A stretch of 64,000 nt of DNA from Hydractinia symbiolongicarpus (taxonomy: Eukaryota > Cnidaria > Hydrozoa > Anthoathecata > Hydractiniidae). The DNA is taken from positions 7,192,001 through 7,256,000 of the forward strand of contig NC_079875.1 of NCBI RefSeq assembly GCF_029227915.1, written 5' to 3'. Below, in pieces: positions 23,897 to 62,800 of the stretch. A program made the translations under genes and the position numbers. The notes under the pieces are model-generated. The model worked only from the letters and a program-made list of their open reading frames with translations. It ran no database searches and was not told where the DNA came from. How positions within the stretch are numbered: the stretch's first letter is position 1; every line of letters starts with the position of its first letter.

Positions 23897-24526
23897 TTAA
23901 CGTCCGTTTTCCATGCTAGGATGGGTTGGACGGGGTATATTAATGACCCTCTTCCAATCTGATCTAGACTGTGTTATATCTAAACTCAACTTCCTCTGTA
24001 TCAAGTCTGTCCTTATAACCTCCTGCCAAGTCTTTCTCGGTCTTCCTCCGGGCTTTGCCCTAGGAACTATCAAGTCTCTACACTTTCTTACCCAATTATC
24101 CTCCTCCATTCTTTCTAAGTGCCCCAGCCAGTTCAATCTTCTTATCTGGATAACATCTTTAATTCTACGGAGACTTAGCCTGCTTCTTAGCTCATCTGAA
24201 CTATTTCTGTCTCTCAGACTGGCGTTACACATCCACCTAACCATTCTCATATTATTCCTTTCTAAGCGGTCAAGATCTTCCTGCTTCACTGCCCATGTCT
24301 CACTACCGTACAACATAACACTTCTTACACAGGCCTCATACAACCTACCTTTTACCTCAATTGACAGGACTCTGCTAGTCAACAAAGGAAGTAACTCTCT
24401 GAACTTCTTCCAAGCAGGACCTATCCTGCAAGTAACACTTCTTCCAACACCCCCTTCACTGCCCAACATATCACCTAAGTAACAGAAGTTCTCAACTATC
24501 TCTAACGAGCCACTGTTGTACATCAT
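23897..24526 (-). pseudogene. LINE C-terminal domain fragment
   Basis: A 209-codon frame with FCYLGDMLGSEGG, RLYEACVRSVMLYGSETW, RRIKDVIQIRRLNWLGHLERM and KPGGRPRKTWQEV. These blocks are the conserved region after the RT thumb in RTE-type LINEs of many animals. It ends near the CAT/ATG trinucleotide tail. The upstream frame is disrupted, so it is part of the same dead insertion. Confidence 0.85.
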
Positions 24527-24659
24527 TAAAGCTGGAAATACTTCATTCTCTATAATCTCACCTTTGCAACGCTTGCATACAAACTGTATGCCAGCTCTTA
24601 ACCTTCCACTAATACTACTACACTTCTTATGTACCCAATGCTTGCAAGTCTGACAAAAA

Positions 24660-26037
24660 ATTAAGTTACTACCAACCCCTTTCCTGCAAACTCCACCAGG
24701 CTACTTTCCAACTACAAGGTCACACTTGGCTGCAATGCTACTAATCATGACTTTAGACTTTGATGTGTTCACCCTTAGCCCTTTCTCTTCTAGTCCTTTC
24801 TTCCACTTCTCAAACTTTTCAACTAATTCTTCCATTGACTCTGCTGTGAGAACCAAATCATCTGCACACAAGGACAACCTGTTCTGAACTTCATCGACAG
24901 CGCTTCTAAGACTAGAACAAACAACAAAGGACTAAGTGCAGAACCCTGATGTACACCAACATTTACACTAAATTCATCACTAAGTGGATCGTTAATCGTG
25001 ACACGACTTCTAGCATTGCTGTACATAGACTGTACCATTGTAACTAGCCACTCATCCACACCTAATTTTCTCATAGCCCACCAAATAACTTTACGTGGCA
25101 CTCTATCAAAAGCTTTCTCTAAATCTACAAAGGCAAAATAGAGATTCTTTCTCTTTCCTAAATACTTTTCTTGAAGCTGTTTGAGTAAAAATATTGCATC
25201 TGTAGTGCCACACCCTGGAACAAAATCAAATTGCATCTTACCTATATCAATTCTTTCTCTAAGTAACTTATCAATCACTCTTTCAATATCTTTCATTACT
25301 TGATCAACTTACTTCAAACCTCTATAGTTACCTCTTTTTAATGCATCACCCTTGCCCTTGAAACAATTCACTATTACACTTGACTGCCACTCATTCGGAA
25401 TAGCTCCATCCTTTATAATCTGATTAGCATGACTTGTAATAAGCTCAACTACAATATATCCAGATGCTTTTACCATCTCTGCAACAATACCTGATACTCC
25501 TGCAGCCTTGCCAATCTTCAATTTCCTAATAGCCTCCACTACCCATTCTGTCTTGATCTGCATAGCTGGCCCTTTTACAACATCATCATCAGACAAATTA
25601 TCCTCGTCCCAATCAAACTCAGTGTTAAGCAACCTCTGATAATGATTCTTCCAAGCTACCCTTTTCTCCTCCTCTTTGGTAGCCAAAACACCTTCATCAT
25701 TACGTATACACTTCTCACCTACAATATCTTGATTAGTCTTCTTCATTTGCTTTGCTATCTTGAATACCTCATCGCGCTGGTCTTCCCTTCTTAACACATC
25801 TGCGAATTTGTTTCTCCCTGCTTCTGATTTTGCCTTATATACTGCTGTACGAGCGCGACGCTTAGCTTCTAAGTAAATATTTTTACTACCGCCTGACTTC
25901 CACTCTTTCCAAGGTTTCCTCTTTTCCTTTATACACTGGTCAACCTCATTATTCCACCACCAGGTCTGTCTATGTCTAGCTGGTCCTTTCGTCCACCCAA
26001 AGGTATCATCAGAAGCTTCTAGAAGACAATTCTTCAA
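24660..26037 (-). pseudogene. LINE linker and reverse transcriptase fragment, frameshifted in catalytic motif C
   Basis: The linker (26037-25309) includes WWWNNEVDQCIKEKRKPWKEW and GNYRGLK. A frame change then leads into the RT fingers/palm (25296-24823): FVDLEKAFDRVPR holds the motif A aspartate and HQGSALSPLLFVLVLEAL is motif B. Motif C should follow after TGCP, but the frame is lost there. In the next frame the sequence reads CADDLVLTAES (about 24871-24839), so the YADD box is both frameshifted and changed from Tyr to Cys. Further on, a CxxC...WVHKKC finger-like segment continues toward the C-terminal fragment. This copy cannot make an active polymerase. Confidence 0.8.
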
Positions 26038-26077
26038 AGTAGTCCAAGTACTTTCAACATTGTCACCATCACATTGA

Positions 26078-26896
26078 CTATTGTAGGCTAACTGCTACAA
26101 TCCCTTCCTTCAGCTTCCAGACTTTTCGACGGGGCCTGTACTTTCCCTTGGCTTCTTTAACACTCTTCAAGATAATATCACAAATCAGCAACCTATACTG
26201 GGAAACACATTCTTCCCCCGATATAACTTTCACGTCCTTCACCACTTTCTTGTCTGACTTTCTAACCAGGAAGTAATCTATCTGTGTCTTACAACCACCT
26301 GACTCATATGTTATCAGCCTACTCTTACTGAATGATGTGTTGCAAACCACTATGTCCGTTGCCATTCCAAACTCAAGCAATCTCTCCACTTCCTTATTTC
26401 TGCTCCCAAATCCATAGCCTCCATGCACACCTCTATAACCTTCAGATGACTTCCCAACATGACCATTAAAGTCGCCGCCCACCATGACAAGTTCAGTGTC
26501 TCCAAACTTTGATGTGACTGCTATTAACTCATCATAAAACTTATCTTTTTCTTTCTCACTGAGTCCACACTGTGGAGCATAAACTGACAGAAAAGTGACA
26601 ATCTTATTACCTATCAAAAACTTTATCACTATAATACGACTATTAACACGCATAACATCTATTACTTTTTCTACCCACTTCTCTGCAACGAATATGCCAA
26701 CTCCTCCATATCCATCACTATTACCAATCCAAAAAAGCTTATACCTTGTCCTCCTACCTTCCACAAATCTCACTGAAGCTCCTCTCCACCTGACTTCCTG
26801 AACACAACACATATCAACAGATCTACGTTTTAACATTTCAACTACTTCACCTGCTCTACCTCTCAGAGTACCAACATTTACACTAGCCATCCTCAA
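26078..26896 (-). pseudogene. LINE APE-type endonuclease fragment
   Basis: The 272-codon frame starts MRMASVNVGTLRGRAGEVVE and carries the apurinic-endonuclease signature: CCVQEVRWRG (catalytic Glu), GGVGIFVAEKW, VYAPQCGLSEKEK, GGDFNGHVGK (the Asp/Asn pair) and a closing CDIIL where the last catalytic His region should be. This enzyme nicks target DNA for target-primed reverse transcription in RTE and CR1/L2-type LINEs; the LRGRAGEVVEML start is typical of RTE/BovB relatives. The frame is lost just before the linker. It is likely non-functional because the downstream RT is broken. Confidence 0.85.
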
Positions 26897-27270
26897 CCTA
26901 GTGTTATCTACCTTGTGATGTGATAGCTGGGTAACGTCTGACGATGCTCACACCTGACATCTGTCCTACCGTGCGCGACACCTTCACCCTTAGAGTTCCA
27001 GCTCCGTTTACGCAGTTGGTCTGATCAACTATTCTTACGGCCATTAATAAAAAGTTTTGGCATTGTTTTACAGCTGGATGCCCTTCCTAGCGCCAACCGT
27101 TCACAGACCAGACTGGGTGTTTTTTAAAGTGACACCATCACTATGTGGCATTTCATGGGACTTCCACAATCGCCCCTTTAAACTAAGGTATGGTGGAGGA
27201 CGTTCAACTCCTCTCTTGTGTCTTAAGGAGACTCTTCACACAACATCAAAAACTTTTGTTGGTTTTTTCA

Positions 27271-33989: not shown

Positions 33990-36900
33990 ATGATCCAGTT
34001 TCTTTTATTTACTGTCATGACGGCAGGTGTTTTGTGTAAGTATCATTTCTTTTTTCAATTCCATTTATCTCGGCCTACTTATTAACCTTGTTACAATTTC
34101 TAAACAGTATGCAAAATTACAAACCAAATCCTTAGACTAGTGTTGTGTTAAGAGTTATATTTAAAACACATGTGATAGTATGCCTGCCCATTTGCTCTGT
34201 ATGATTGCTTTGTATTATTCTGTACCCGTAGAAGAAACTGTCTACCAATTATTTTATAATTTATCATCCGTAATGTTGCAATGGAGCCTTTTGGTTTCAC
34301 TTTTATACGTGATCAATTTTATGTTCGTTTTCGCTACTCAAAGAATTACATGATCAAGAATTACTGTTTTCAAAATTAATACTGCAGCTGATTGCTTGAA
34401 TGTATTCTGAAATGATTAAGGCGTAACTTTGTGAATATTTACGAACGTACTCTTTTATTCTTAAAAACACAGTTTAATTGAAAAAGTCAGTGAACAAGGA
34501 CCAGTTGTGTTTTTTGTCACATTATGATTGGCAAATGTACACATAATAATATGCTATGTTATCAATTTCTTAACGTGAAACGAGTGTAATTTTTACTTTT
34601 TTTTCAAAGCGCAGTAGAGTAGAAGCCGGTGTTCTGTACTGTTTAGAATGTTTAGCCTACGTGTGACTTCTGAGAACAGTTTAACACATTTAATTCGATT
34701 TTTGGTAATATATACCATGCAATGTGTCCATTTATTAACTTCAGGTAAAAAAATATTCTGCTCCGCTTCATTGCTTTCGCCCATTAACACGGGTTTAAAA
34801 ATCTTGATATCGAAGGGATGGGAATACAATAAGAACTTGAGATGGAATACTCAGCTACATATCACCTGTTTTGATGTGTTTGCTGAATTTATTCTTTTTT
34901 TGTGTTATACATTTTTTTCCGTTAACTTACATACAAATTTCGTTAGTGGGTATTTGAGAAAATTTTAACCACTTGTATATATCATTAATAGCTATATTTT
35001 GAGCCTGCCCGAATTTATAGCCGTGCTACGGATACACGGAATGCGATATATAAAGAACGGGTGAACTGTTGTATTTTTTACGGGCTACCGAATACATTTA
35101 ATTGATTTACTCAACAAATACTTTTTCTGATTGTTGTTAATAGTACCTTGGAGTATAAGTGTTTCTAAGATCCATAAAAACAAAACTGTTTTAAGACTGT
35201 TTCAATGTAAATTATATCTCTGTGTTGTGAATCATCAAACTTAATGTTCATATTTAGCTGTATCTAATTTTGGTCCACAGGAGCTTATATCAAAGAACTA
35301 TCCGAGTTTTCGAATTGGCGAAAGACATGGAAAGCAAGTTTACATTATTAATTCTGGAAAACCAAGTTATAAAATTGTTTCAGGTAAATGCTATAACAAG
35401 TTTCCTCCATATCGAAAATTAGGATATAGTAAAAGACGTTGCAGATGACTTTAATGAAATGAATCCTCAAACAGGCAAAACTCAAATTAATCAATTAGTG
35501 TATTTTGCGTTATAAGCACTTTTAATTCAATTGATCTACTAAATAGAAAAGTATATTTTCATTTCTTTTAAAAAGGATTGAATGGAAAGCCTGGAACTAT
35601 CAGTTTCCAATCAGTAACTAATCCACATGCTTATTTACGACATCGTGGGTTTCTTGCATTCGTAGACAGGAACGATAACAGTCAACTTTTTAGAGACGAT
35701 GCTTCATTTATAATCATCATGAACAAATTCTTCAATGGTTATGCAGTGTTTAAATCCTCCAACTATCCACACCGCTACTTACGTCATCAAGGATATCGCT
35801 TGAAACTGCATCGATATGACGGGTCACATCTGTTTAAGCTGGATGCTAGTTTTAAAGTACTAGCGGTTGTACAGCCTATTATGCGTAAGTTTTATGTTGC
35901 TGCAACTGGAATGAGATAAAGATATAGAAAATGGCGGAGTAGTTTTAAAAACTTGTCTCCTTACTGATAACCTCATTTGTAGCTACCTTTAAGGCGCAGT
36001 ATTGTTAGTTTTGAAGTTAAGGGATGTTTGAAAAAAACTGGCTACTTTTCTCGAGAGTGCAATGTGTTAAAACTAGTGGCTTTATTGGGGGGGAGGGGAG
36101 GAGATGGAGATTATAGTTTCTTTATTTGTTACAAAATTTTACACTATAAATATTTTTTGGAACATTTGTTGGTAAATGTTTCATGTGATCATTATTTTAA
36201 TATTTGGAATGATATTCTGACTATTACGCCATTAAGCTAACTTGGTGCAAAAAAAAAAAACCAAATTAATTTCAGATAAAAAGGCTTGAAAAATTTTGAA
36301 TGTATTTTTCAAATCCTTCATTGGTTTTCCAGATGTTAAATTTAAAAGGCTCACTTATTATGTATGACATCAGATCTAGCTCTGTGCCTGGTTTTACATT
36401 TAGCAATTTTTAGCTTAGGGTTAAAAACGTGTTTTGGCCATTCACTTTAGCGTTTTAAACATTTTACATAAAATTGAATATTTAATTACTATAATTAGAC
36501 TCAACAACAACAATTACATGATTTAGTGCTATCTGAAGACATAATAGTTTCGCATCAATATCGAAAATTTAAAGACATATACCCCGAGAACATAACCTTG
36601 ATCCCAGGACCTGTTGTCTCTTTTTGCGTATCGCACAAAAAGCCCTGAGAACTAGATTGCCCGAGAACCAATAAAGATCTTTCAAAAAGTAAAATGATTC
36701 CTAGCTAAAAATTGGATTTAAATGCCTTAGATTTAAAAATAATATTTATTAAAATTAGTTAGGTATTTTTTGCAATTATAGCTAAGAAAAGTTTTCAATA
36801 TGATAATGTAAAAAAAAAAAAAAAACACTCATGTTGGAGGGTTCACATCGTAACAAAGAACATTAATTAAAATTAAGATAAAACAACGTTTTTAAGAAAT

Positions 36901-37700
36901 GGTGGAAACGAAATATCTCTTCTGGGTTAAGATAATTTAACAAACAAATTTTTCCTGATACGAAAATCTTGTTGATTTACTTTTAGCTTCCAGTTACTTT
37001 GGACCAAAAACTTTCATATCAAAGAACTTCGCCAGTTACCGAATTGGTGAGAAGCATGGAAACCAAGTTTTCATTGTTAATAGTGGAACTTGTGGTTATA
37101 AAATTGTACCAGGTAAAGAATATTATTGTCATATCTTTACTTACGGTAACCAGTTTTGTAAATGATTAAGGAGTGTCCTACTTGTAAAAATGTCCTTAAA
37201 ACAGTTTTTGTCAATGCAAGAGAATGATAATAATGTAGCATTTTTGCCTTTGAAACGCATATTGCTTAAAAATAGTAATGAATTGAAATTGGAATAAAAT
37301 AAAAATTGACAGAACATTTCATACCACTGTTCAGTAATTGTGATCGAATCTTATTGATTTCTTCTCTAAAGCTAAATTTCCTTTCACATTTAAAGGACTG
37401 AATGGTAAACCAGGAACTGTCAGTCTCCAATCATTGACTAACCCAAGTGCTTATTTACGTCATCGTGGGTTTCTTGCATTCGTCGACAAAAACGACAACA
37501 GACAAATTTTTAAAGATGATGCTTCATTTATAATAATTGTCAACAAATATTTCCATGGTTACGCGGCGTTTCAATCATCTAATTATCCCAATCGCTACTT
37601 ACGTCATCAAGGTTATCGTATCAAGCTTCATCCAGATGACGGGTCACATCTTTTTAGGCTTGATGCTAGTTTTAAAGTGTCAGACCCTTCCCATCATTAA
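33990..37700 (+). CDS. Secreted protein with two AbfB-type beta-trefoil domains
   Basis: Five coding exons join perfectly: 33990-34035, 35258-35383, 35576-35884, 36987-37112, 37396-37700, giving 303 residues. All introns are phase 1. Exon 1 encodes a signal peptide (MIQFLLFTVMTAGVL). Exons 2-3 and 4-5 each encode one AbfB (arabinose-binding) domain, about residues 16-157 and 161-299. Hallmarks in both are ISKN and YRIGE-type strands, the AYLRHRGFLAFVD block, NYPxRYLRHQGYR and DGSHLFxLDASFKV. In fungi this fold binds arabinofuranose side chains next to arabinofuranosidase enzymes; here no catalytic domain is present, so a sugar-binding, lectin-like extracellular role is inferred. The second exon pair arose by tandem duplication of the first. 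If the donor at 35885 is not used, the frame ends at 35919 after one domain, a possible short isoform. Confidence 0.85.
34990..35089 (+). repeat. Decayed mini-Helitron in intron 1 of the AbfB gene
   Basis: GCTATATTTTGAGCCTGCCC at the left and GGGTGAAC...TTTTTACGGGCTACCGAATA at the right resemble the ends and middle of the 141-bp element at 20875-21015, including an AATGCGATATATAAAGAACG block. The terminal CTAG is lost. Confidence 0.45.
36585..36680. repeat. Short dispersed repeat, family R3
   Basis: AACCTTGATCCCAGGACC followed by a TCTCTTTTT stretch and AAAAAGCCCTGAGAAC. A related copy occurs at 63575-63660 (CTCGATCCCAGGAC, TCTCTCTTTT, GAGCCGAGGTTGGG). Both lie in introns or spacers and can fold on themselves. 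Confidence 0.45.
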
Positions 37701-42661: not shown

Positions 42662-42858
42662 TATGATATTACATGAGCGGAGGCCACCCTCCTTGAATAC
42701 ACACACACTACCTGTACACCACGCTTTTCTTTCAGCGCCACGCTAATTTCAAATCTTCCCCTATAAGGTTAACCGATACATAGTTACTAAAGGTTCTTTT
42801 AAGTTTCTTTTCCCCCCCCCCCTTGTTTTAGAATTACCAGGAAGAAATTTACGCAAGC

Positions 42859-44817
42859 ATGACATCGTTGACGCAAACAACTCCCTCCATTGCAGAACAC
42901 TTGGAAATCTTACCTATAAAACGAAACATAAAACTTCCCTCGATCCGACGTCTGTTCCCACATAGCGTGGAATGGAAGAAACGCAACAAAAGCTTATCCC
43001 GGAAAACGTCGGCAATACTAAAAGAAAACAAAAGAATATTCGAAAACAACCTAATTACCAATCTCTCCGCACACACATTGTCTCCAGAAGAAACGGAAAT
43101 CCTCTCTCGGGGTCTCTCCTTTGTGCCTACACCAACAAAATACTCCTCCCCATCTGAAACGGGATCTTTAATAAATTTTACTACTACTATGAAAAGACAA
43201 ATATTTTTCGCAAGCGAGGGCCCTGAAAATACGAAAGTTGAGCCTCACCCCTTCCACGTCCGAACAAATTGGCAACCACCTACACCTGATAACAAGGACT
43301 TGCTCGAATATTTTGAAAAAATCACAAACGACATAAATTTAATTAATTCTCCAACTCCCGGGAAACATAATATAAATCACCAACACAGAAGAGCTCTTGT
43401 CAATCTTGCAAGAAACCCAAACATCACCATAAAACCAGCAGACAAAGGTGGGGGGATCTGCATTCTTAACACTACCGAATACATAGACAAAGTCCACTTG
43501 CACCTTAATGATAGAAACACGTACATACAAATGCCAAATGACCTAACCAATGACATTAGCAAAGAGGTAAAAGATTATGTCGATTTCCTTTTTGTTAAAC
43601 AATACATTGACAAAACGACTAGACGATTTCTAACTCCCCCTAATCCACCGCGCACATCACTATTTTACGGACTACCTAAAATACATAAACCTGAGATCCC
43701 ACTAAGACCGATTGTTTCGGGTTGCGACAGCGCCACAGACAACCTATCAAAATACGTAACACATTTCATCCAACCTTTGGTCACGAAACTACCGTCCTAC
43801 ATTAAAGACACAAAACACTTTCTCAGAGGATTGCGGGAGCTCCCACCTATGCCCGAAAATGCTTTTCTTGTAACAGCAGACGTTGCGGCTCTATACACAA
43901 ACATCCCCCATGATGAAGGAATTAAAGCAGTACTCGATTTTATAAAACAATTTAGAAATGAAATGCCTAAATATACCCCACCAAATCATGTCTTTCACAC
44001 GCTGCTGCATCTCATTCTTAAAAACAGTTTTTTCAAATTTATGACATCATTTTATCACCAAATTAAAGGAACGTCCATGGGTACAAGAATGGCCCCACCT
44101 TACGCAAATCTATTTATGGCAGTACTTGAAGGCCTAATCATAGCTGATTTTCCCGGTTTTATTGAATTCTGGAAGCGCTTTATAGATGACATTTTTTTCA
44201 TATTTACGGGAACTGAACTACAATTAAAAAAATTATTCACACACATGAACAAAATTCACCCTTCCATAAAATTTACTTTTGAGTATTCAAAATCAGATAT
44301 TCCCTTTCTTGACACACGCATATATATTGACCAGTCTCGCAAATTACAAACAACCCTATTCCGCAAACCTACTGATAGAATGATGCTTTTACACTACTCC
44401 TCTGAACACCCTCATCATGTTAAGGCTAGCATCGTATATACCCAGGCATTGAGATATTGCACAATCATATCCAATGACCAAAATTTAGAAAAGGAATTAT
44501 ATACTCTTGCACGCACATTCCTGGCTAGAGGATACCCCCTAAATCTCTTAATTGATAAATTTTCAAAGGCTCTGAATTTTTTGAGAAATGAACTCCTTGA
44601 ACCCGTCATGCACACACACGTAGAAGAAATCACACCACTCATAACTCCATTTTCCCCTGTTGGTATGGCGCAAAGTAGAATTATTCACAAACATTGGTCA
44701 GTTATCGAAAAAAATGAGACTTTAAAATCGATCTGGCCGTCCCGCCCCTTAACTGCATACACACGGGGCAAAAGCCTAAGAGACACTTTGGTTAAATCGG
44801 CTCAAAAACCTTTGTAA
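42859..44817 (+). CDS. Penelope-like reverse transcriptase, no GIY-YIG domain
   Basis: An intact 652-codon frame. The RT core shows NITIKPADKGGGICI, LPKIHKPEIPLRPIVSGCDS, motif A TADVAALYTNIPHDEGI (catalytic Asp), motif B KGTSMGTRMAPPYANLFM and motif C FIDDIFFIF (the Asp-Asp pair), then FLDTRIYI, a FRKPTDR strand and a thumb with LLHYSSEHPHHVKASIVYTQ and FLARGYP. These blocks are typical of Penelope-like elements, which prime RT at nicked DNA or telomeres. In the usual animal form the protein continues past RPLxAYxRxxxLRDxLV into a Cys-rich linker and a GIY-YIG endonuclease. Here it stops 9 residues after the LRDTLV box, so it is an endonuclease-minus form. The first ATG in the frame is used; a C-rich tract lies just upstream. 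Confidence 0.85.
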   Translation: MTSLTQTTPSIAEHLEILPIKRNIKLPSIRRLFPHSVEWKKRNKSLSRKTSAILKENKRIFENNLITNLSAHTLSPEETEILSRGLSFVPTPTKYSSPSETGSLINFTTTMKRQIFFASEGPENTKVEPHPFHVRTNWQPPTPDNKDLLEYFEKITNDINLINSPTPGKHNINHQHRRALVNLARNPNITIKPADKGGGICILNTTEYIDKVHLHLNDRNTYIQMPNDLTNDISKEVKDYVDFLFVKQYIDKTTRRFLTPPNPPRTSLFYGLPKIHKPEIPLRPIVSGCDSATDNLSKYVTHFIQPLVTKLPSYIKDTKHFLRGLRELPPMPENAFLVTADVAALYTNIPHDEGIKAVLDFIKQFRNEMPKYTPPNHVFHTLLHLILKNSFFKFMTSFYHQIKGTSMGTRMAPPYANLFMAVLEGLIIADFPGFIEFWKRFIDDIFFIFTGTELQLKKLFTHMNKIHPSIKFTFEYSKSDIPFLDTRIYIDQSRKLQTTLFRKPTDRMMLLHYSSEHPHHVKASIVYTQALRYCTIISNDQNLEKELYTLARTFLARGYPLNLLIDKFSKALNFLRNELLEPVMHTHVEEITPLITPFSPVGMAQSRIIHKHWSVIEKNETLKSIWPSRPLTAYTRGKSLRDTLVKSAQKPL

Positions 44818-46149: not shown

Positions 46150-46267
46150 AACTATTTCACATGCACCTCCCTTTTGGTCTTCCCCCCCCCTCCCCTTTTT
46201 AACCCCGACAAAATTAATGATAAAGTGTTGTTCGCTATTTTTTGCTTTAAAATTTTAGTCTTTAATC

Positions 46268-46972
46268 ATGGACTGCGATCAACTCAGTACTGGCGTTCCA
46301 GAAGACTTTGACATGTTTGCTCCCCCAGAAGACTCCCCTACCTTCGTGCACCAAAGACACCTCGAAAAAGAAAAAAAACAAAGCTTGGACTTGCTCCTAA
46401 AAGAAAAATTAAAAAAAACAGAAATCGAGAACTTTGGGCCATGCATAAATATCATCCCCACCATTTCCCTTACAGAAAACCGAACTACCCACTGGAAGCA
46501 GATATGTCAACATACAGCCACCTCCCTTCACCATATTCTTCTGGAACAAGTCAATGAAAACATCACGCACATACAATCTAAATTAAACCAAATTGAATTA
46601 CAATTACAGTACATACATATACCTACACCCATACCAGACAACGTAACGTGCGGCCAACCCTCTCCAGGTAAGTCAGGTAAGTATCCCTCTACACCTCTGT
46701 CTCCACCTGTGACCACAAACAAGAAAAATCCTAAAACTAAAAGAACTACACTCCTCCCAAAAGAAGAAATTCCAAATCAAACGCAGCGACCAGTACCACT
46801 CATGAATCTCAAAATCCGACCACCTAAATTATACTACAAAAACACCAACTCCAATTCCAATCGAAAAAACACCAAATCCAATGACCACCATAAAAATCAA
46901 AGAAAACCAAAACAAAACAATTCAACAGCATCAGAAAGCACAATAAAATACAGGGATTATCGCTATTTTTAG
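46268..46972 (+). CDS. Penelope-like element ORF3, 234 residues, coiled-coil and basic tail
   Basis: Starts MDCDQLSTGVPEDFDMFAPP (acidic N-terminus), then a long Lys/Glu/Leu helix (KEKKQSLDLLLKEKLKKTEI), a second helix region with NITHIQSKLNQIELQLQYI of heptad type, a Pro-rich stretch and a strongly basic Asn/Lys/Ser-rich tail ending in YRDYRYF. Coiled coil plus basic tail is the general layout of ORF1-type RNA-binding proteins in non-LTR and some Penelope-like elements, so RNP assembly is a reasonable inference. Two consecutive GGTAAGT donor-like sites sit at about 46666-46685, so part of the transcripts may be spliced inside the ORF. Confidence 0.6.
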   Translation: MDCDQLSTGVPEDFDMFAPPEDSPTFVHQRHLEKEKKQSLDLLLKEKLKKTEIENFGPCINIIPTISLTENRTTHWKQICQHTATSLHHILLEQVNENITHIQSKLNQIELQLQYIHIPTPIPDNVTCGQPSPGKSGKYPSTPLSPPVTTNKKNPKTKRTTLLPKEEIPNQTQRPVPLMNLKIRPPKLYYKNTNSNSNRKNTKSNDHHKNQRKPKQNNSTASESTIKYRDYRYF

Positions 46973-51888: not shown

Positions 51889-52770
51889 TCACTCTTTTTG
51901 CATAAAACTTACAACATTGTCTGACACATTAACTTGCATGAGAACCCGAACATTCAGCATGCTTTTTGCAACCATCTTTGTATCATCCAAGGTTACTTCA
52001 AAGCAAGATGTTATTATCTCGCCAGGTGCACAATATTCCTGCCTTGCTTTTGTATTGCTATTCAGTAACGTAAATTTAACATTAGTTTTCTCTTGGCAGA
52101 GTTCTTTCACTGAGATGTTTTGACATTTTTGGCATTCAACCAAATCTTCTTCATTTACTTCCACAGTGTGCTTGCACATGTTGCAACGCAATTGAGGGAA
52201 AAGGGACTTAGTATTCACTAAAACAATTTTACCCGTGACAGCTGCTGATGTTGAGTCAACAAGGTCTTTTTCGGTGAAACTTTCAGGATCCAACGAGACT
52301 GACGCAGTTATTGTCGAAGAATCCATGGTTTTCAGTAACCGCTGTGATTGATATTTGGAAACCCGAAGATTTCCAAAACAATAGACAGTTTTGTCTTCAA
52401 CCTTGTGAACAAGGTCGCCAAATATTGTAATGGGGATAATATCAGTCTATTCGTTGATGCTGGCTTGTTTCAAACGAATTGTTATACCATTTTTTTCAAC
52501 TAACTTTTCGTTGGATAAATTGTAAAGACATGCCTCAGTGTTCACCAAATCATACAAGGAACATTCATTGTTGATCTGGGCAATGGTAAGATACTTCTTG
52601 GCTATTATCGGTGCAGTGAAAGAAAGTTTAGCCTTCTTTAGTGATGACCAGTCATTTATAATGATGTTGTCAGCATTACCTCTTTTATATTTCTTTATTT
52701 CACATCCTAATCCATCTTCACTGGTACTGATTTCTGAGAATAACTTTCGCTTTTCAGGCGAAAAACACAC
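51889..52770 (-). pseudogene. RPA-like OB-fold protein with one premature stop
   Basis: Two frames (52770-52447 and 52326-51889) lie in the same phase and are joined by an open stretch except for one TAG. Read together: KKAKLSFTAPIIAKKYLTIA, DIIPITIFGDLV, FGNLRVSKYQSQ, LKTMDSST, then a zinc-finger-like CxxC (CNMCKHTV) and CxxC (CQKCQNIS) pair and a final OB-like segment. This resembles single-strand DNA-binding RPA1-type domains, which some Helitrons carry next to the Rep/helicase gene. The intact rest suggests a fairly recent stop mutation. Confidence 0.6.
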
Positions 52771-53140
52771 TACTCTGGTGCTTTTTTCAACTGTATTAAA
52801 TTGAAGTCGAAAAACTTCTTGTTTTTATCTCTGGCATACGACTTCATGGGTGATAAGTTGTCGACATAACCAACAATGTTGTTGTCTACAATGAAGAGAA
52901 GCCTTTTGTTAACAATAACATTTCTTTGGTGTCAACAATGCTGTAAAAAAATCAAAATTTAAAGGAACTCATTTTCACTTTTGGGGACTCATTAACATTC
53001 ACAAAACATACAAAGCCATGTTAATCGCAGTATAGGTCTACAGAATGATTTTCCATAACTCACCTGATTTAGCTAAGTTCCGTAGAACTTAACTTCACAA
53101 AATAAGAGCAGTGTTTTTTTATGTAGTGTCAAAGAATAAA

Positions 53141-54795
53141 TTAAAAAAACTTACCATCTTTTTTAGGAGTGGAAGGACCTGAAAGAAAACATTTAAGTAG
53201 ACGCTTCATATGCACTTGAAAACAATTATCACTCGAAATACGGAGTGCATTATAGTATTCATTTTTATCAATTTCAAGTTCTTTTAAGATGTCAGAAATA
53301 GTTGGAACTTGTTCAAAGTTTTCTTTTGTTGAAAAAAGTATATTGCGTGTTTTCGGGTTAAGGTGATTATCAATAAAGACTTCCACTTTATCTAGAATGT
53401 CCTGCCTCTGTTGTTGAATTTCATTACGCTCTAACTCGTTCAGATCTGTTGAAAGAGGCGTCGCAACAATAGTTTCTCTTGAGAAAAATCGACCAAACTG
53501 ATAACGACAGGATGTATTTTTATACTTTCTACATGACTTAGAGTGAGCATGGATCTGGTAGGTTGTTACTAAATTGAACAAATCTGGATTTGCATCATGG
53601 TCAGGTACATACGCTTTGACAATAACATCAATCTAATATATTCCTCAATATTATTTTTTTAAGAGTTGGAGCATTTAATACCCACAGAAACGAATGTATA
53701 TGTGGACTACCACGAATTTGAAATTTAACTCTTATAGCATGGTAAGAAACTTTGCCTAGTGGGCCATTGACAATGATTTCTTTGAAGAATACTTCTACTC
53801 GATATTGAAAATGTCTGGCCAAAAGTACCGGATTGAAATTCAAATATTGACAGCGTTCAAAATATGACATATTGTCTATATCATCATCAGTCATATTTTC
53901 TCCCTTCAGCTGAGCTATGATAGATATCAATTCATTCCATCTCAAGTCAGCACAACTGAGAGTCATGAAGAAAGTTGGGAGACCTAGCTGCTTGAACATT
54001 GCTAGAACCTCCAAAAGAAACTTTTTCCAATAAGCTGGTGTGCCTTTTATAGGGGCCATAAATTGGAAACCCTTATCTTCAGCTATGAAAGATTTCACTG
54101 CTGCAGAAAAATTTCTTGAGAGCATAACAGCTGTCATATTACCAGAATTAACTTTTTTCAAAGCAACATTTATTTGACTATTTAAGTTCAACTGTTGCAA
54201 TGTAGACAGTGCATAGAAAATATAGTCAGAGTCTGATGCAAACTTTTAGCGGTAGTTTAGAAGACTTTGATAAAAATATTTCACTGGACTTAACTTGATA
54301 TCACGTTCTACTTTGTATCCGAACTTTCCAGCTGGAAATAAACATGGGTGAGCAAGCTCTTCACAAAATTCATCAGTTAATAGTGACATGGGAGTATTTC
54401 CTTCACCTGAGGCAATTGAAATATCTTCCATCATCGGAAGATTAGATATCAACATTGTTTCATTTGCTTTGTGAATCTAAAGGATTTTCATTTTCTTCCA
54501 AAATATTACCAGTATGCAAAGAGAATTGACCATTTTCTTCAATTTCCTCTTCCGGTGGCTCTGATATGTTAGTTAACGCTGCTGGAATACGGTCTACATT
54601 AATTTGAATGTCATGATACAAAAAATTGTTTTTTTTCAAATACAAAAAAAGTGTTTTAACAATTTTCGGAGAGACAGGTTCAAAATACACATGTCCACGA
54701 AAAGAAAGTTTCCTCTTCAATTTAACAACGACAATACCATTAACATTGTTTATCGACTGTCTTTTTAATGTCTGCCGTGGCTTCGTCATCAACAT
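53141..54795 (-). pseudogene. Helitron Rep (HUH endonuclease) region
   Basis: Pieces in order: KRKLSFRGHVYFEPV and NFLYHDIQIN (54795-54460), LAHPCLFPAGKFGY (54455-54246), then after an in-frame TAA the core (54200-53628) with GTPAYWKKFLLEVLAMFKQL, FFMTLSCADLRWNEL, FNPVLLARHFQYRVEVFFKE and GSPHIHSFLWV. HIH is the metal-binding HUH motif of rolling-circle endonucleases. A frame change near 53640 leads to 53581-53141 with CRKYKNTSCRYQFGRFF and NEYYNALRIS, the zone of the catalytic Tyr. The frame ends right after this zone, before the helicase. The enzyme would nick and join the element ends for rolling-circle transposition; this copy is dead. Confidence 0.8.
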
Positions 54796-54850
54796 TTATT
54801 TGAACATGTTGAACTTCAAATGGGCAATTCTCGAAGTCTGCAAGATTTTG

Positions 54851-55509
54851 TCAATAATTTTTTTTAATTTGGCTTTGTGCATCACAAAGCGACTTGAATT
54901 TCAGTAATATGGATGAACCATCGGGGCTGAAACTTCCGTGACTATCTCTACTGTGTGGGTCAAATAGATAAATGGACATTTTTTCCCAAATAATCGAAAC
55001 ACTATATCCACCAGCTATAAAAATTAGACCGTTTCCAACAGAGGCAAAGTTCATGGCATTGTGCTGCGAAAAATATCTAACATCACCTAAAAAACCTGTG
55101 AACTTATCCCCAACACTACAGCTACACACCGTTGTTCAATTTTTACAACAGACGGTAATTCTTCAACACTGAGAGGCCGGTATATTTTAACATTTTTAAA
55201 GTTATCATCTCCACACTCAAAAACACAATCAAGGTCAAATGATTTCCAAGAAGATATTCGCTTAAATGCTGACCAATATATTGACAATAATGAGTTACAC
55301 ATACATTGAACACCTGCAGTGGACCCAAATTTTCGATCACCTTTATAAAATGAACCTGATGTAGATTTTATATGGATAGGAGAAGGGTCAGCAGATAGGG
55401 AAGTTGCCATAATAGAGCATAAAATATTTTGTTTACAAAGTTTATCATAGAAGGCTGAATAAAGCTGAACAGTGCTGAGGGACCAGCTTGAAAAGACAGA
55501 TGATGTCAA
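54851..55509 (-). pseudogene. Cysteine-protease-like N-terminal region of the Helitron
   Basis: Two overlapping frames carry FGSTAGVQCMCNSL (a QC-x-CN motif like the Cys nucleophile region of papain-fold proteases) and, about 100 residues on, IYLFDPHSRDSHG (a DPH motif like the catalytic His/Asp region) with SILLKFKSL. Such a domain precedes the Rep domain in several animal Helitron polyproteins and may act as a processing protease or deubiquitinase. The active-site assignment is by pattern only. The frame changes near 55130. Confidence 0.55.
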
Positions 55510-55619
55510 TTTTCAAACGCTAGCCGAAGTCAAAAATAATGATGAACAGTGCTGAGGGACCAGCTTGAAAAGACAGATGATGTCAATTTTCAAACGCTAG
55601 CCGAAGTCAAAAATAATGA
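55466..55619 (-). repeat. Perfect 77-bp tandem duplication
   Basis: The 77 bases starting TGAACAGTGCTGAGGGACCA occur twice head to tail without visible differences. The unit covers the apparent start of the Helitron ORF (MTSSVFSSWSLSTVQ on the minus strand), so any promoter or start region there is doubled. It ends 55 bases before the Kolobok left end. Confidence 0.85.
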
Positions 55620-55674
55620 TTTTTGTTCGAAAGCTGATAAAATATGATAAAATGATGTAATCAAAATGTTTTAA

Positions 55675-55688
55675 AGGGGAATTAAGCC
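55675..55688 (+). repeat. Kolobok left terminal inverted repeat
   Basis: AGGGGAATTAAGCC immediately after TTAA (55671-55674). Confidence 0.9.
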
Positions 55689-55966
55689 CAAATTTTTTTT
55701 CTTCGGAAATATCTTTTACAAACCCTACTTGTTTTGATGGTATATATAAAAAAAATTGAAATTCTTTGAATTTACATCCCTTTTCTAGCATAAAAGTTGA
55801 CAACAGTAATCGCCATGTTTAAATCATAAAAAATCTGCGATGAAGATCTATGACGTATTTTACGCTCATTTCAATTTTTTGATCTCTTCATCTTTTTTAA
55901 AGTTGTTTACACAATGTGAATAAACGTAACAGCGTATTTGTTGATGTTATCTTTCTTTCAAAAACG

Positions 55967-58617
55967 ATGCCTACTTGTAAAGCTTATGGCTGTAGAAATA
56001 GTACTGGGAAAGGAGAGGTGAAAAAGTCTTTTTGTATGATTCCTCGACCGAACAGTAACGAAGAAAAGTTGCGTTGTTTGAGATGGATAAACAACATGGG
56101 TCGTGCCGATGTGAACATCAATACGTTGAAATTTGGTAAAGACGCTGTGTTATGCGAAGATCATTTTCACCCAGATTGTTTAAAAAAAGAAATAACATTG
56201 CCGGAATATTTTACGAAAAGAAAAAAGAAAGAGTTAGTACCGGGGGCAGTGCCAACAAAATTTTCGCACAAAACATACGATGAAATAAACATGGACGGCA
56301 CAAAACATTTACAGCAACGAAAATTATCTGTTAGACGAAGTGAAGAATTAGCACGTTCTGAAGTTGGTCACTTTCTTCTAACATATAATTACATCAGTTT
56401 TCTTTCTATTTTTTATCTACACTACCTCTGGAGTGTTTTCAAATGATATTGTTTAGGTCCTGTTTACACTGAGTTGTATTTAATTTTGTGTTTTACAGCT
56501 TATCGGCCATCTGCTAACGGAAAACGAAGTTTCTCAAAACGAAATTGTGAATGTTCAAACAAATCCAACTTTGGTTGAAGAAGAAACCATCATGATCATA
56601 AATGTGAAGGATGTAAGTCACGCTGTAACTGATTTTGATTTATTGCAACTTTTTTTTCGGTAAAACTTAGTTATTTTATCTTTCAAGATTATTGAACCAA
56701 CCCACAAGAACGTTGGAGTTCAATGTGAAATATCACTGAGCGACTTAAACAGAAGCTGTCAAACTGATCGGTTAGAATCATGTGACTTTGAAGCGCAAGC
56801 TCCCGAGTATTATTCCATTTCTGCTAATTACGTTGCTGTGGTAAACGATCACGCATATTTCAAAGAAAAAACTGTTTGCTCCACTCCTTCCAAAAGAAAG
56901 CACGTTTGTGAAGACGTCTCACTCTCTCCTATAAACTCGTCATTATAATCCTTACCAACTGACGATGAAAAAGACTCTGATTACATCGCTGAAAGTGCAG
57001 AAGAGTCAATCAATATTAGTGATGCTCATGAAACCGAACGAAGCATTTTAAAAGAAAAGAAATTTGTTGTTTTCGAAAGCATGCTAGATGAAATATTTAA
57101 CTTACTGCCCTGTTGTTCATGTGATGGAACCGCAACCAGTATCGAAAAGCGTGAGCAGGGAACGTGTGTACTATACAAAGGGTATTGCATCAATGAGCAT
57201 GTGGTTTTTGACTGGAAAAGTCAACCCATGCTTGGAAAAATGCCAGCATTTAATTTGTTGCTATCCTCTGCAATATTTTTTTCAGGTAAAAAAAATCTTC
57301 TTTTGCATGCTGCATGATGATATGCAAATTTACAGCAGGCTATGCCATGTTTTCAAACGGGTTGAAAGCAACCTCATCTCTCGGACATGTTGACTTTTTG
57401 TTATTTTCGCTGCTCATTCAGCACGCTGCAGTCTGGATCACCTAAAATCATATATTACCATTTTAGGAAACACATATGAAAGGATGAAGAAAGTTGCGAA
57501 TTTTTCTGGTTTAAATTTTGTCAATCAACGAACATACTATGATGTTCAGCGATCACTGATAATCCCAACTGTAAACGACCATTTCGTGAAAAATATTGCC
57601 AGTGCAAGAGAGGATAGTCGGGGAGAGAATGAAGCATGTCTTGGCGATGGCAGATATGACTCACCTGGTAAATCTGCCAAGTATTGCACATATAGTTTAC
57701 AATCGTCAGCGTCTAACAAAATTGTTGCGACAACCACAATCCAAACAACAACCGGTAAAGGTTCGGCGCCCTTGGAGTTACAGGCTTCAAAAATTGCCTT
57801 GAGCAGTTAAGTTCCGATAACTATCCTGTAGGAAGAGTTGCCACGGACCGAAACAGGCAAATCGCTAAATGGATACGTGAAAACAGGTTAGATATCATGC
57901 ATCGGTATGATCCATGGCATTTTGCTAAGAACATCAAAGCCAAACTTAGACCATTAGTAAAACGAAAAGATAGGCGAATATTACAGGATTGGATCAAACC
58001 AATAGGAAATCATCTTTTCTGGTGTGCCGAAAACTGCCAAGGTGACCCAGAGCTGCTGGTGCAAATGTGGAAGTCGATACTTCAACATGTTACGAATAAA
58101 CATAATTTCGCGACATTGGAAGAAACCGTCTTTGATAAAAAAAACTTGAAGGATATGGAACTTCTTTGCGAACCATACCACACAGGGGGCGTGGAAGTTT
58201 TTCACTCACTGATAACAGCGTACGCACCAAACGGCAACATTTCGAGTTGAATGTGATGAACGCCCGAGTGAAGTTGGCTATCTTGGACCATTACAATAAC
58301 GTTGGTCGAAAGCAGGCTGTTGTAAAATGCGCGCGTAAAGGGAGTCAGAAGGTCGGTGAAAAAAAGTGGAAGTTTGTCTCAAGCAAATTGAATAAAGAGT
58401 GGGTCGCGAAACCTGTGAAAGAACCAAGTCTTTCAGTTTTGTTGATGCGATAATGAATGACATAATTGAAAGAAAGGAGAGTGGGGTAAAGGTAAAGATC
58501 TCTGGTAAAGAAGTTGTAAACAAGCTTAGTCGACCACGTAACATTGCCCACACGGCCAGACCTGACACTTCGAAAATTTTAGAGAAACGGAATTATGCAA
58601 AACGATTCAAAAAATAA
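55967..58617 (+). pseudogene. THAP-domain Kolobok transposase, decayed
   Basis: Likely exons 55967-56362, 56499-56612, 56688-57285 and 57467-58617, phases matching. Exon 1 encodes a THAP zinc finger: MPTCKAYGCRNSTGKG, then the W of the fold, and LCEDHFHPDCL with the C2CH ligands, ending in LVPGAVPTKF. THAP binds the transposon ends. Later exons give CYLLPCC-like and FDWKSQPMLGKMPAFNLLLS, then GDGRYDSPGKSAKYCTYSL (first catalytic Asp region of Kolobok DDE transposases), VATDRNRQIAKWIREN (second Asp region), DPWHFAKNIKAKL and PYHTGGVEVFHSL (third acidic region). Defects: in-frame TAA at 56946-56948 and three frameshifts near 57790, 58230 and 58405, two of them in short A runs. The exon-1 donor is weak. 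The ATG 17 codons upstream of MPTC could also be used. Confidence 0.8.
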
Positions 58618-58686
58618 CTCTGGTCCTTTGTACTTTATTTCGCTTTTTTGTTGTTGTTATTGTTTGTTTAAAAATGTTAAGTCCCG

Positions 58687-59611
58687 TTATATGTCAACAA
58701 ATTCTTTGAATCCAGTATATTTTCCATCTGAATCAGGAAATTCTTCCCTTATTTTCCGCACAACACAAGCTGGAATCACCACGCGACATCCTTTTCCAAG
58801 CCTTTCATAATAATGTACCCAGGCCGTGTACTGTCGGTAACTGGTGTACCTCATTTCCCTACAACGGAATCAAAGTTTATGTTATAGTGTAAACCAGGAT
58901 AAAATATTCGAAAGAAATTATTTATTCATCAAAACTTCTTTGAAACAAATTGTTATTTGAGCACATGGGCTCTCCTCCTTTTTTATTAGATTTTCAAGGA
59001 ATGTCATTATTTTTAATTTAATTAAATAATCTGCGATGGTGTGTATTTTCATAGCGCATGGACCTGTAAGATTATAAAGCGAAAAGTGAGAAGATAAGAA
59101 AAACGTTTTATTTGTGTGTGACAATGAGAAATATGGTCTGTGAAAATATTTGCGAGAAACATATTTTTTGAAGAAAGACTTACTTATTAGTATATGTGGA
59201 GAGTTCGTTATATTTTTTCTGATATCGTCGATGTCGTATGCTGGCTGTCTCTAACACTGTGCGGTTCAAACATAAAATTTCAAAATCCTTGTGCATCGTG
59301 ATGCACTTGTTATCATTCAACTTGTCGTTCAATAAATTGAAAAATTCTTGGCAACACTTGCATTCCACAAGAGTGAAGCAATTATAAATAACGCAACATG
59401 TACAAGTACACCAATGCAAATTTTCAAGTCTGCTTGAATTCAATTCGTCTTCTTCTTCGCTATCACTAGATTTATAAGTCACTTTTTCAAGTTCTGCTTT
59501 GGAGTATTCAGGCTCATTCATGTAACATCCTGTTACTGACGTTTCGCTAGAGTCACTTGAATATTCTACTTCTGAAATAGGAAAGTCAGAGCAGGAGCTT
59601 GAATTTTCCAT
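58687..59611 (-). CDS. P2X7 ballast-domain-like protein carried by the Kolobok element
   Basis: Two exons, 59611-59184 and 58858-58687 (minus strand), joined through a GTAAGT donor and a TTGTAG acceptor with matching phase, encode 199 residues without a stop. The N-terminus (1-70) is acidic and Ser-rich (SDSSETSVTG, SSDSEEEDEL). The core has LENLHWCTCTCC, ECKCCQEF, CITMHKDFEILCLNRTVL and, after the junction, RYTSYRQYTAWVHYY, IPACVVRKIREEFPDSDGKY and TGFKEFV. This order of Cys pairs, CITxxxxF, TxxxxR/RxFPxSxGxYxGFK follows the C-terminal cytoplasmic ballast domain of P2X7 receptors, a zinc- and nucleotide-binding fold. There is no channel domain. It lies wholly inside the TTAA-flanked element, convergent to the transposase, so it is transposon cargo or a standard second gene of this family. 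Confidence 0.75.
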
Positions 59612-59848
59612 ATCTCGCTGCTTTCGCTCAGCGCAAGCTTATGCTTCTTCAGCGTAATATACGTCACGTTATAACAGTCTCCAGAATCAGCCGTGGCCTC
59701 AGAAAATTTAAATCGCGCTTACCGTTCGCTCATAAAAGGGGTAACTTTTATATTAAAATCAATCCAAATAATATTTATTTTTCAAAATTTTGACCAGAAT
59801 TTGGGAAACGAACATAATGTTAACCGAAATAATGCTATTTAAGTTTGA

Positions 59849-59862
59849 GGCTTAATTCCCCT
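59849..59862 (-). repeat. Kolobok right terminal inverted repeat
   Basis: GGCTTAATTCCCCT immediately before TTAA (59863-59866); exact reverse complement of the left end. Confidence 0.9.
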
Positions 59863-59866
59863 TTAA

Positions 59867-62800
59867 GCTTCAAAATGACGTGATAATCAATCTGAAACCA
59901 TAGTTGAAAGACTAATACATACCAAAAATCCACAACAAAGTATATAAAAACCAAACCAACTTCAACAACGTGCAATGAGTTTCAAAATGGCAGAGCCTAC
60001 CAGCCAAACTTTTGGCAGATCCAACATGTGCGGAGGTCTGGACCTGTGGGCGAGATAGAAGCGCGCATTGCGCAAAAATGTAAAAACGGCGCGCCATCTA
60101 AAAGCTTTTCGTTCCCGAAGTTGCCTTTGAAACACTCACCAACCTAAAGGTGTGAGTGAATTACTCACTTTTACTTTATAGCTAGAGGTACCTAACAAGT
60201 AGATAGACGCCGTTGCAACTTAATAAAAGTCAGATTAGTGAGGATGGGAGTTATACCAAACTGAATATTAAGGCTAGATAGGTACTTAGTAACAAAAATC
60301 TTAAAGTTGGTTTGATAAAAGTTTATTTATACACGGCTAAGAAACGTGATAAAGTGTTATTCTTAAACCTGTGAAAATATATTAAAACCACAATGCATGG
60401 TTAAAAACGATCTACAAACTTTTTTAAAATGGCCACCATTTCATTAGATCGTCTACCAAGCACGCCGTCATTGCTAATTGTACTCATAAAATAACTGGTT
60501 ACAGGGCGTACAGGTCGAATTCTACGGTTTTCAGTTTTTGTTTTTTGTTTTTCAAAGCGCATTAATTCTTTCCTAACTCCTAATCAAAATTATTTTAACT
60601 ATTAAGTTTTAAATAAAACACATTAGAATATTTAAATACAAAGAAATGAATTAATTCAAACCCCTGCTTTCTCAATGACTTTGCGGCTCCTCTTTGCACC
60701 ATTTTGCGCAGAGACATCACGGTCATTATTAAAGAGAATATTCTGTAGATCGTGTTTTGTAGCACGGGGCCGTCTGACCTTTATATTACGGTACAGTACC
60801 GGTACCATTTCGCGCACGTTAATGTTATCTAGGGCTGAACCTACGGTGGAGCGATTAATAAAAACCGTGCACTTTGTCCAACATTCAGGTGGAGCGTCTT
60901 AGTACAGGCATGCAGAATGTTCTGAATTACTAGCAACAAAATTTTAAGGGTAGCTGATTGGTTACTTTATTGATAAATTTGCAGCTACCTAAATGACCTG
61001 AAAGCGAAAAGTAAAAAAAAAGAAGAACTCCGTCGTACTGCATAAACATAGTCTGTATTTTAGTGTTTTTCAACAATTTACTGGTTCTTCAGTCCGTTTT
61101 ATACCGCATTATACCAGTGCACGGCTTTAACGCGTGCACTGCAGAAGTGACTATGAACTTTCTAGCGGCACCGATCCGTTTGTGCCTAAGACGTTGCGTC
61201 AAAAAACATTAAATTAAAACATGAATAGCGACAAACCTAAAGTTTTACTCGGTTCCATCGCTTCAATCAGTAACACGATTGAGCGTGGACTCGAGTAAAA
61301 TAGTTTTAAACTTTGGAATAACAATCGCATTAAATGTGTTGTTTCAATTACTGGAAGCAACATTTCTCCAAAATTGGCAAGACTGCTGAAACTTCGCAAT
61401 GAGCGTGTCCGCTGTGCTATTATTTAAGTAGTATTGTCGTTAGCCGGTGAAAAAATTAACGGGAATTTACCAGTCATACAAACTTCCCGTATCAGTGTTT
61501 GGCGAAATTTTACCTGTTGTGAAATTGCTCCATGGTAGCCATGTGGTCCCGAAAAATATCCACTTATAGCTTGCTACTGGAGTATTATTTTACCTAGCTT
61601 ATCAGACAATTTAGGCTGACATTTGGTCAAATTTAAGAACATATTAATGGTAAAACTATACTGAGTCTCCATCGACATTTTGAGTTTAGAAATAACTTCG
61701 GAAAGAAAATAAAGTAGTGTTATGCCGTATCTGGTGAAAAACACATATGTAACAACAATTTTTAAAGCCAGGTCTGGGTTAAGAAGGAGAAGCTGTAAAT
61801 AGTTTTCTAACACCTAAATTTGACATTTTCTTACATTTTTAAAGATTGTATACTAAAAACGATTTCTGCAAAAAATAAGAACATCCAGCTTTAATAGTCT
61901 TATATAAAATTCATGGTAATTAAAATTCACGAAGAATTAAATTTAAATTTATATTGAGCAAACATAAATACAGAAGGTAGGAATAAATTAATCAACAAAC
62001 AAATAATTGACTTACAAAAACTTATTAACATATACTGTTCTTTTCATCATAACTTTGTTTTTGTCAATTTTTTTTAAAAGGCGCGAATAATATAACCTTT
62101 TTTTAATGAAATAGACAAAGCAGTATGTATTGTATGTAACTTCGTCCGTGCACATTCTTCAAACAAAGAAAGAGATAACAAGGGAATAACAAAAGTTAAC
62201 TACCCATAGCATTTGTACAAGAAACCATTTTAAATTAAAGAAAAAACAAATTAAAAATAAATTTTTCAATTAGCGCAGCAAAAAGATCAAAGAGTTCAAA
62301 TTGTGCGTTACCTTTTTCTGTGTGCATGACACAATTTTTTTATTGCGCAGAAACAGACAGACGAAATGGGACAGATGTGAACACGCTGAGTTGATCCACA
62401 AGTAAATGTGTGACTCAGTGCTAAACGCCAGATCGAAGCCCTAAACTGTGCCATACTTCCAGCCGGAGCGCTTAAGTACAGGTATGCGCTTAAGTACAGG
62501 CATTAAGTAAATCGAGTGTAAAGTAGAGAGCATCATTTCGGGTGTAAGCCACAACTTTAGCCGTAATAAAAACACAGGTTACAACCAATAGTTACTCCAT
62601 CGTAGCAAAAAAATCAGCTGTTATTTTGCGGAATAAGTACCCGTGAAAGTCCAAAAGCTAATCGTGACTGACACCGAGATCCTGGTATGTAGGAATACAA
62701 GTAACCCATGTCGTACATCAGTAACTACTTTCTGAGTATATCAACTGTGTAAAACCAGCTGTTTCATCAGGCTGCAAGGTGCTTAATATCCGCAGTAAAT

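Follow-up and report, generated by a model that had tools for sequence, protein, structure and literature searches.

A KolX-Like Gene with a P2X7 Ballast-Related Product inside a Kolobok-Type Transposon

Introduction

The stretch of DNA analysed here (64 kb in its whole length, hereafter the window) contains a 4.2-kb transposon copy with both of its ends (55671-59866), which carries, besides a decayed transposase, a gene whose product is related to the ballast domain of the P2X7 receptor. This gene is very probably KolX, an accessory gene of a Kolobok DNA transposon, and the element that holds it looks like one more copy of the Kol0 lineage. It displays a TTAA duplication, termini of the RR...YY form, a THAP domain and a DDE core with a C/DxxH motif, which are features of Kolobok elements, as well as the feature of Kol0, i.e., a second gene, KolX, with a ballast-like sequence (PF20478, all seven cysteines).

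A first-pass annotation of the same DNA had proposed that a stand-alone ballast gene carried by a transposon offers a route by which the domain was captured by a P2X gene. The match with the ballast profile and the location of the gene inside a transposon both agree with this proposal, and the route itself has been published (PMC9587614), whereas the hint of different selection that went with it did not hold. In substance the interpretation is correct, but the path from a transposon ballast gene to capture by P2X had already appeared in 2022 (PMC9587614). The derivation of the P2X7 ballast from a relative of the KolX gene is a conclusion of Kojima and Bao (2022) and is cited here as such.

Rump et al. 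(2020, PMC7016195) proposed that the uptake of an ancient ballast domain by a P2X4-like gene gave rise to P2X7; the domain is present in sponges, cnidarians, molluscs and other groups. No word that starts with "transpos" occurs in the main text of that paper. Kojima and Bao (2022, PMC9587614) describe KolX as the second protein of the Kolobok elements of the Kol0 lineage, with a ballast fold. It is similar to residues 476-595 of human P2X7, and the fold includes two zinc ions and seven conserved cysteines. The Kol0 lineage, represented by Kolobok-1_XT, has a host range that includes vertebrates, annelids, cnidarians and sponges (PMC9587614). In the same work, the origin of P2X7 is attributed to the fusion of a P2X4-like gene with KolX, Nanor is considered as likely a domesticated KolX, and Kolobok elements are recognized by the TTAA duplication, the 5'-RR...YY-3' ends and the C/DxxH motif (PMC9587614). 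THAP is a usual but not universal motif of Kolobok (PMC6004289); the word KolX is absent from the main text of this latter paper, which deals with Xenopus Kolobok.

Boundaries and Ends of the Element

As read from the sequence of the ends, the element is bounded by two TTAA target-site duplications (55671-55674 on the left, 59863-59866 on the right). Immediately inside them stand 14-bp terminal inverted repeats, the left arm AGGGGAATTAAGCC at 55675-55688 on the forward strand and the right arm, a perfect match to it, at 59849-59862 on the reverse strand. The sequence TTAA-AGGGGAATTAAGCC (55671-55688) therefore has its exact reverse complement at 59849-59866, and the termini AGGGG...CCCCT are of the 5'-RR...YY-3' form. 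In the 64-kb window, this is the only TTAA-flanked perfect 14-bp inverted pair with arms 0.5 to 8 kb apart. No such TTAA-bounded pair was obtained in 200 simulated sequences of 64 kb each (first-order Markov).

In searches of the window for further pieces of the element, tblastn with KolX and eight transposase pieces led to the element alone. With the element and its ends as blastn queries, the hits were the element itself, the terminal repeats and, at other places in the window, two short matches (24 and 30 nt, E 0.004). Scans for tRNA genes and Rfam families gave no match.

A Decayed THAP-DDE Transposase

The forward strand of the element encodes a decayed THAP-DDE transposase. Its N-terminal part (55967-56366, the 3' end being approximate) begins with MPTC at 55967 and carries a THAP domain (PF05485, E=6.9e-13, profile positions 1-87 of 87, in the ORF 55901-56446). 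The middle part, delimited by eye, is in pieces (56500-57285, with approximate limits and splice sites). The DDE core and the C-terminal part, recognized from motifs and frames, extend over 57468-58617 and change frame along the way. Four motifs follow one another in this region, GDGRYDSPG (57643-57669), TDRNRQ (57843-57860), DPWH (57909-57920) and HTGGVEVFH (58179-58205), and are read as the DDE core, in which the catalytic residues are assigned tentatively, by motif. DPWH is a motif of the C/DxxH type, placed between the second D and the E of the core. Between it and the last E lie CAENC (58023-58037) and HVTNKH (58086), where zinc-finger residues are expected; judged by position, they are candidates for such residues. 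Pfam detects a Mutator-like transposase in the ORF 57759-58250 (PF20700) only below the cut-off (E=1.6e-4, 21.2 bits versus 26.5), and two of the four transposase pieces scanned have no Pfam match.

One in-frame stop (56946-56948) and three frame changes (in the overlaps 57759-57810, 58139-58250 and 58396-58453) interrupt the transposase, in agreement with the stop and three frameshifts reported in the first-pass annotation. These lesions were read by eye from the list of ORFs, without an intact relative as guide, and were judged from the frames and from what we take to be Kolobok motifs. The stop could conceivably fall instead inside an unrecognized intron. Because the transposase is broken, the present copy is probably unable to move by itself.

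Structure of the KolX Gene and Its Place in the Element

KolX is a two-exon gene on the reverse strand, tail to tail with the transposase gene, from which it is separated by 69 bases. Exon 1 (59184-59611, 428 nt) encodes residues 1-142 and provides two bases of codon 143. It includes an acidic, serine-rich N-terminal stretch (17 D+E, 19 S+T and 4 K+R in the first 64 residues) and six of the seven zinc-site cysteines. The putative intron (58859-59183, 325 nt, reverse strand) is of the GT-AG type (GTAAGT...TTGTAG) and has a GC content of 29% versus 37% in the exons; it is presumably spliced out. Exon 2 (58687-58858, reverse strand, 172 nt with the stop) supplies the last of the zinc-site cysteines (C174) and the IRxxFPxSxGxYxGF end. 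Joined in phase, the exons give 199 residues free of stops. The frame, its phase and its position between 14-bp inverted ends and TTAA duplications had all been described correctly beforehand, and so had the motif order WCxC...CxCC...CITxxxxF...RxxFPxSxGxYxGF, which is present in the 199-residue product.

The intron of KolX falls in the codon matching S543 of rat P2X7. In P2X7, the ballast domain is encoded by exon 13 (PMC7016195). Either the donor of the P2X7 domain was devoid of this intron, or it later lost it, or the present KolX family gained it.

In the region surrounding KolX (58600-59870), a search for repeats of at least 12 nt yielded one 12-nt direct repeat and one imperfect 17-nt inverted repeat, neither of which flanks KolX, and nothing of that length marking a nested inner element, although a short target duplication would escape such a search. 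A nested independent insertion of KolX was rejected on this ground. More generally, the ballast gene could be a host gene, similar to nanor, picked up by or inserted into one Kolobok copy. Stand-alone ballast genes are indeed reported across Metazoa with no link to transposons in the account of Rump et al. (PMC7016195), and a single copy of the element was examined here. However, the gene and the transposase are arranged tail to tail, 69 bases apart, no repeats of at least 12 nt flank the gene, and the Kol0 Kolobok elements are reported to have KolX as their second protein (PMC9587614), which makes an origin as a host gene quite improbable. The gene is best regarded as KolX, belonging to the element itself.

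Relationship of the Product to the P2X7 Ballast

Comparison of the 199-residue product with Pfam, a check already proposed in the first-pass annotation, retrieved the ballast family P2RX7_C (PF20478) with E=5.4e-21 and 75.8 bits versus a cut-off of 23.5, over profile positions 34-192 of 192. This is the sole Pfam family above its cut-off, and no P2X channel domain is found in the product. One reversed and one shuffled control sequence matched no Pfam family at E up to 1. In the PDB, five distinct sequences match at an E of 1 or less, namely four P2X7 chains (E 3.9e-8 to 6.6e-7) and TMEM260 (E 0.067).

Cysteine-rich stretches can draw spurious matches; for example, a P2X7 fragment hits Keratin_matx at 2.6e-5, just below the cut-off of that family. 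A chance likeness between a cysteine-rich frame and the ballast motif has nevertheless a negligible probability, considering the 75.8 bits obtained versus a cut-off of 23.5 and the lack of any match with the reversed and shuffled controls. Furthermore, the positions that KolX has in common with P2X7 fragments include residues other than cysteines (W67, R146, Y150, W156, P172, R180, F183, P184, G188, Y190, G192 and F193). The likeness thus points to a true relationship of KolX to the ballast.

KolX and the chain of 6u9v, which we take to be rat P2X7, have 36 identical residues among 114 aligned positions. All seven zinc-site cysteines are present, C68, C70, C73, C86, C87, C103 and C174 corresponding to C477, C479, C482, C498, C499, C506 and C572 of P2X7, where the P2X7 numbers are read from the alignment. 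Seven cysteines (or seven to eight) and the motifs are given for this domain in PMC9587614 and PMC7016195. The residues of P2X7 in contact with GDP are R546, H547, R574, R578 and K583 according to Rump et al. (PMC7016195), and the residues of 6u9v at these five numbers agree with the rat residues that they name. Two of these five contacts are kept in KolX (R546 and R578), while H547, R574 and K583 are replaced by Y147, V176 and D185; the same two are reported to be retained beyond deuterostomes (PMC7016195). Since only two of the five P2X7 contacts are present, a role of KolX as a nucleotide switch is not supported.

A structure model of KolX predicted from the single sequence is too poor for use (pLDDT 33.9, pTM 0.23), so that the assignment of the fold depends on sequence comparison. 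This comparison suggests that the KolX product would consist of a ballast-like dinuclear-zinc fold and an acidic, probably disordered tail.

Relatives were also looked for outside animals. Two scans of viral contigs gave 14 and 43 pattern matches and a scan of prokaryote genome contigs gave 40, none of which was confirmed; records near the genome of the window were possibly left out of these scans. For an animal gene such an outcome is no surprise, and it has no bearing on animals.

Selection on the KolX Frame

The intact state of KolX beside a broken transposase had been taken as a hint that the two genes are under different selection. At the lesion density of the transposase (four in about 2248 nt), 600 nt would carry about 1.07 lesions, hence a chance of about 0.34 for an undamaged KolX, by a rough Poisson estimate that uses approximate transposase exon limits set by us and counts one stop and three frame changes. 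As KolX would escape damage in about 34% of cases at this density, the contrast between the intact and the broken gene carries little weight, and different selection on KolX and the transposase is unsupported.

It could also be imagined that selection for a host function maintains the ballast frame, i.e., that this KolX is domesticated, while the transposase decays. The frame is open over 199 codons, for which the chance is about 5e-7 in a random 199-codon stretch of the base composition of the element. However, an open frame shows only present or past coding, and freedom from lesions over the 600 nt of KolX has the chance of about 0.34 just given. Moreover, the gene is still enclosed by transposon ends that match, as it would be in any ordinary copy. 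Domestication of this copy is therefore very unlikely, and KolX is better seen as an accessory gene of a transposon.

Neighbouring Features in the Window

A decayed Helitron lies beside the Kolobok element, on the reverse strand (51889-55512; Helitron_like_N at 53628-54245, E=2.4e-28). Two ORFs of this region, 55087-55512 and 54851-55135, have weak, below-cut-off matches to Herpes_teg_N (E 0.0042 and 0.0032) and are perhaps a peptidase-like passenger of the Helitron; no Pfam family matches its segment 51889-52446. Immediately to the left of the Kolobok insertion, a direct tandem duplication (period about 77 bp) is visible by eye (55467-55621).

On the forward strand, a 661-residue ORF encodes a reverse transcriptase (42832-44817; RVT_1, E=1.9e-7), which looks Penelope-like, and the ORF 46259-46972 may belong to an element. 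Pieces of a non-LTR retrotransposon are found at 23897-26947 on the reverse strand, with an endonuclease (Exo_endo_phos, E=1.5e-7) and a reverse transcriptase (RVT_1, E=2.7e-17). The region 35572-37700 (forward strand) includes two similar ORFs (35572-35919 and 37344-37700), the second of which has an AbfB domain (E=1.7e-23). Lastly, the region 13445-16295 (forward strand) holds ORFs that, on visual inspection, look like the GAIN and 7TM parts of a gene for an adhesion-type receptor; for the ORF 15747-16295, Pfam yields WTF alone, below the cut-off (E=2.8e-4).

Possible Role of KolX

In other Kolobok lineages, nucleases or a helicase are present as accessory proteins (PMC9587614), so that KolX is most naturally read as a helper in transposition. 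Its product may assist the transposase by acting, within the transposition complex, as an adaptor for protein or nucleic acid; this adaptor role is put forward tentatively, as a possibility that we would not call probable. A more specific idea, which we consider improbable, is that KolX-like proteins could be a factor for the handling of the TTAA target, either in its recognition or in a clean rejoining at TTAA. If this were true, the tail of a vertebrate inflammation receptor would be a recycled factor of TTAA transposition. The nucleotide site would then have been completed after capture, the KolX of the window having seven of seven zinc cysteines and two of five nucleotide contacts. More generally, a role of the ballast in transposition could bear on its role in P2X7.

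The element described here is one more copy whose transposon genes include a relative of the P2X7 ballast. It agrees with the published capture story and adds nothing decisive to it.

Comparison with Known Systems

As in the published Kol0 elements, the KolX of the window is the second gene of a TTAA-duplicating Kolobok element with a DDE transposase, and it encodes a ballast-like sequence with seven conserved cysteines. The two were compared by description, and no difference between them is apparent at that level.

Nanor and the other stand-alone ZCD proteins resemble KolX in being short, with a C-terminal zinc-cysteine domain and a variable N-terminal stretch (PMC7016195). They are described by Rump et al. 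(2020, PMC7016195) with no link to transposons, whereas the gene of the window lies inside one. The same authors mention a tick protein in which a THAP-type domain ("TAHP" in the text) is joined to a ballast domain and, from sponge to sea urchin, a linkage of two markers with ballast genes (PMC7016195). Now that ballast genes are recognized as genes of transposons, the question arises whether these markers might themselves be transposon genes.

The P2X7 ballast shares with KolX the W-C-x-C-x2-C, CC and CIT clusters, R546, Y550, C572, R578 and the FPxxxGxYxGF end. In contrast, the CC and CIT clusters are separated by 15 residues in KolX versus 6 in P2X7, and KolX has a 4-residue insert farther along. 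Unlike P2X7, it is devoid of the P2X channel part, and its sequence is split by an intron at the codon of rat S543, whereas the P2X7 domain lies in exon 13.
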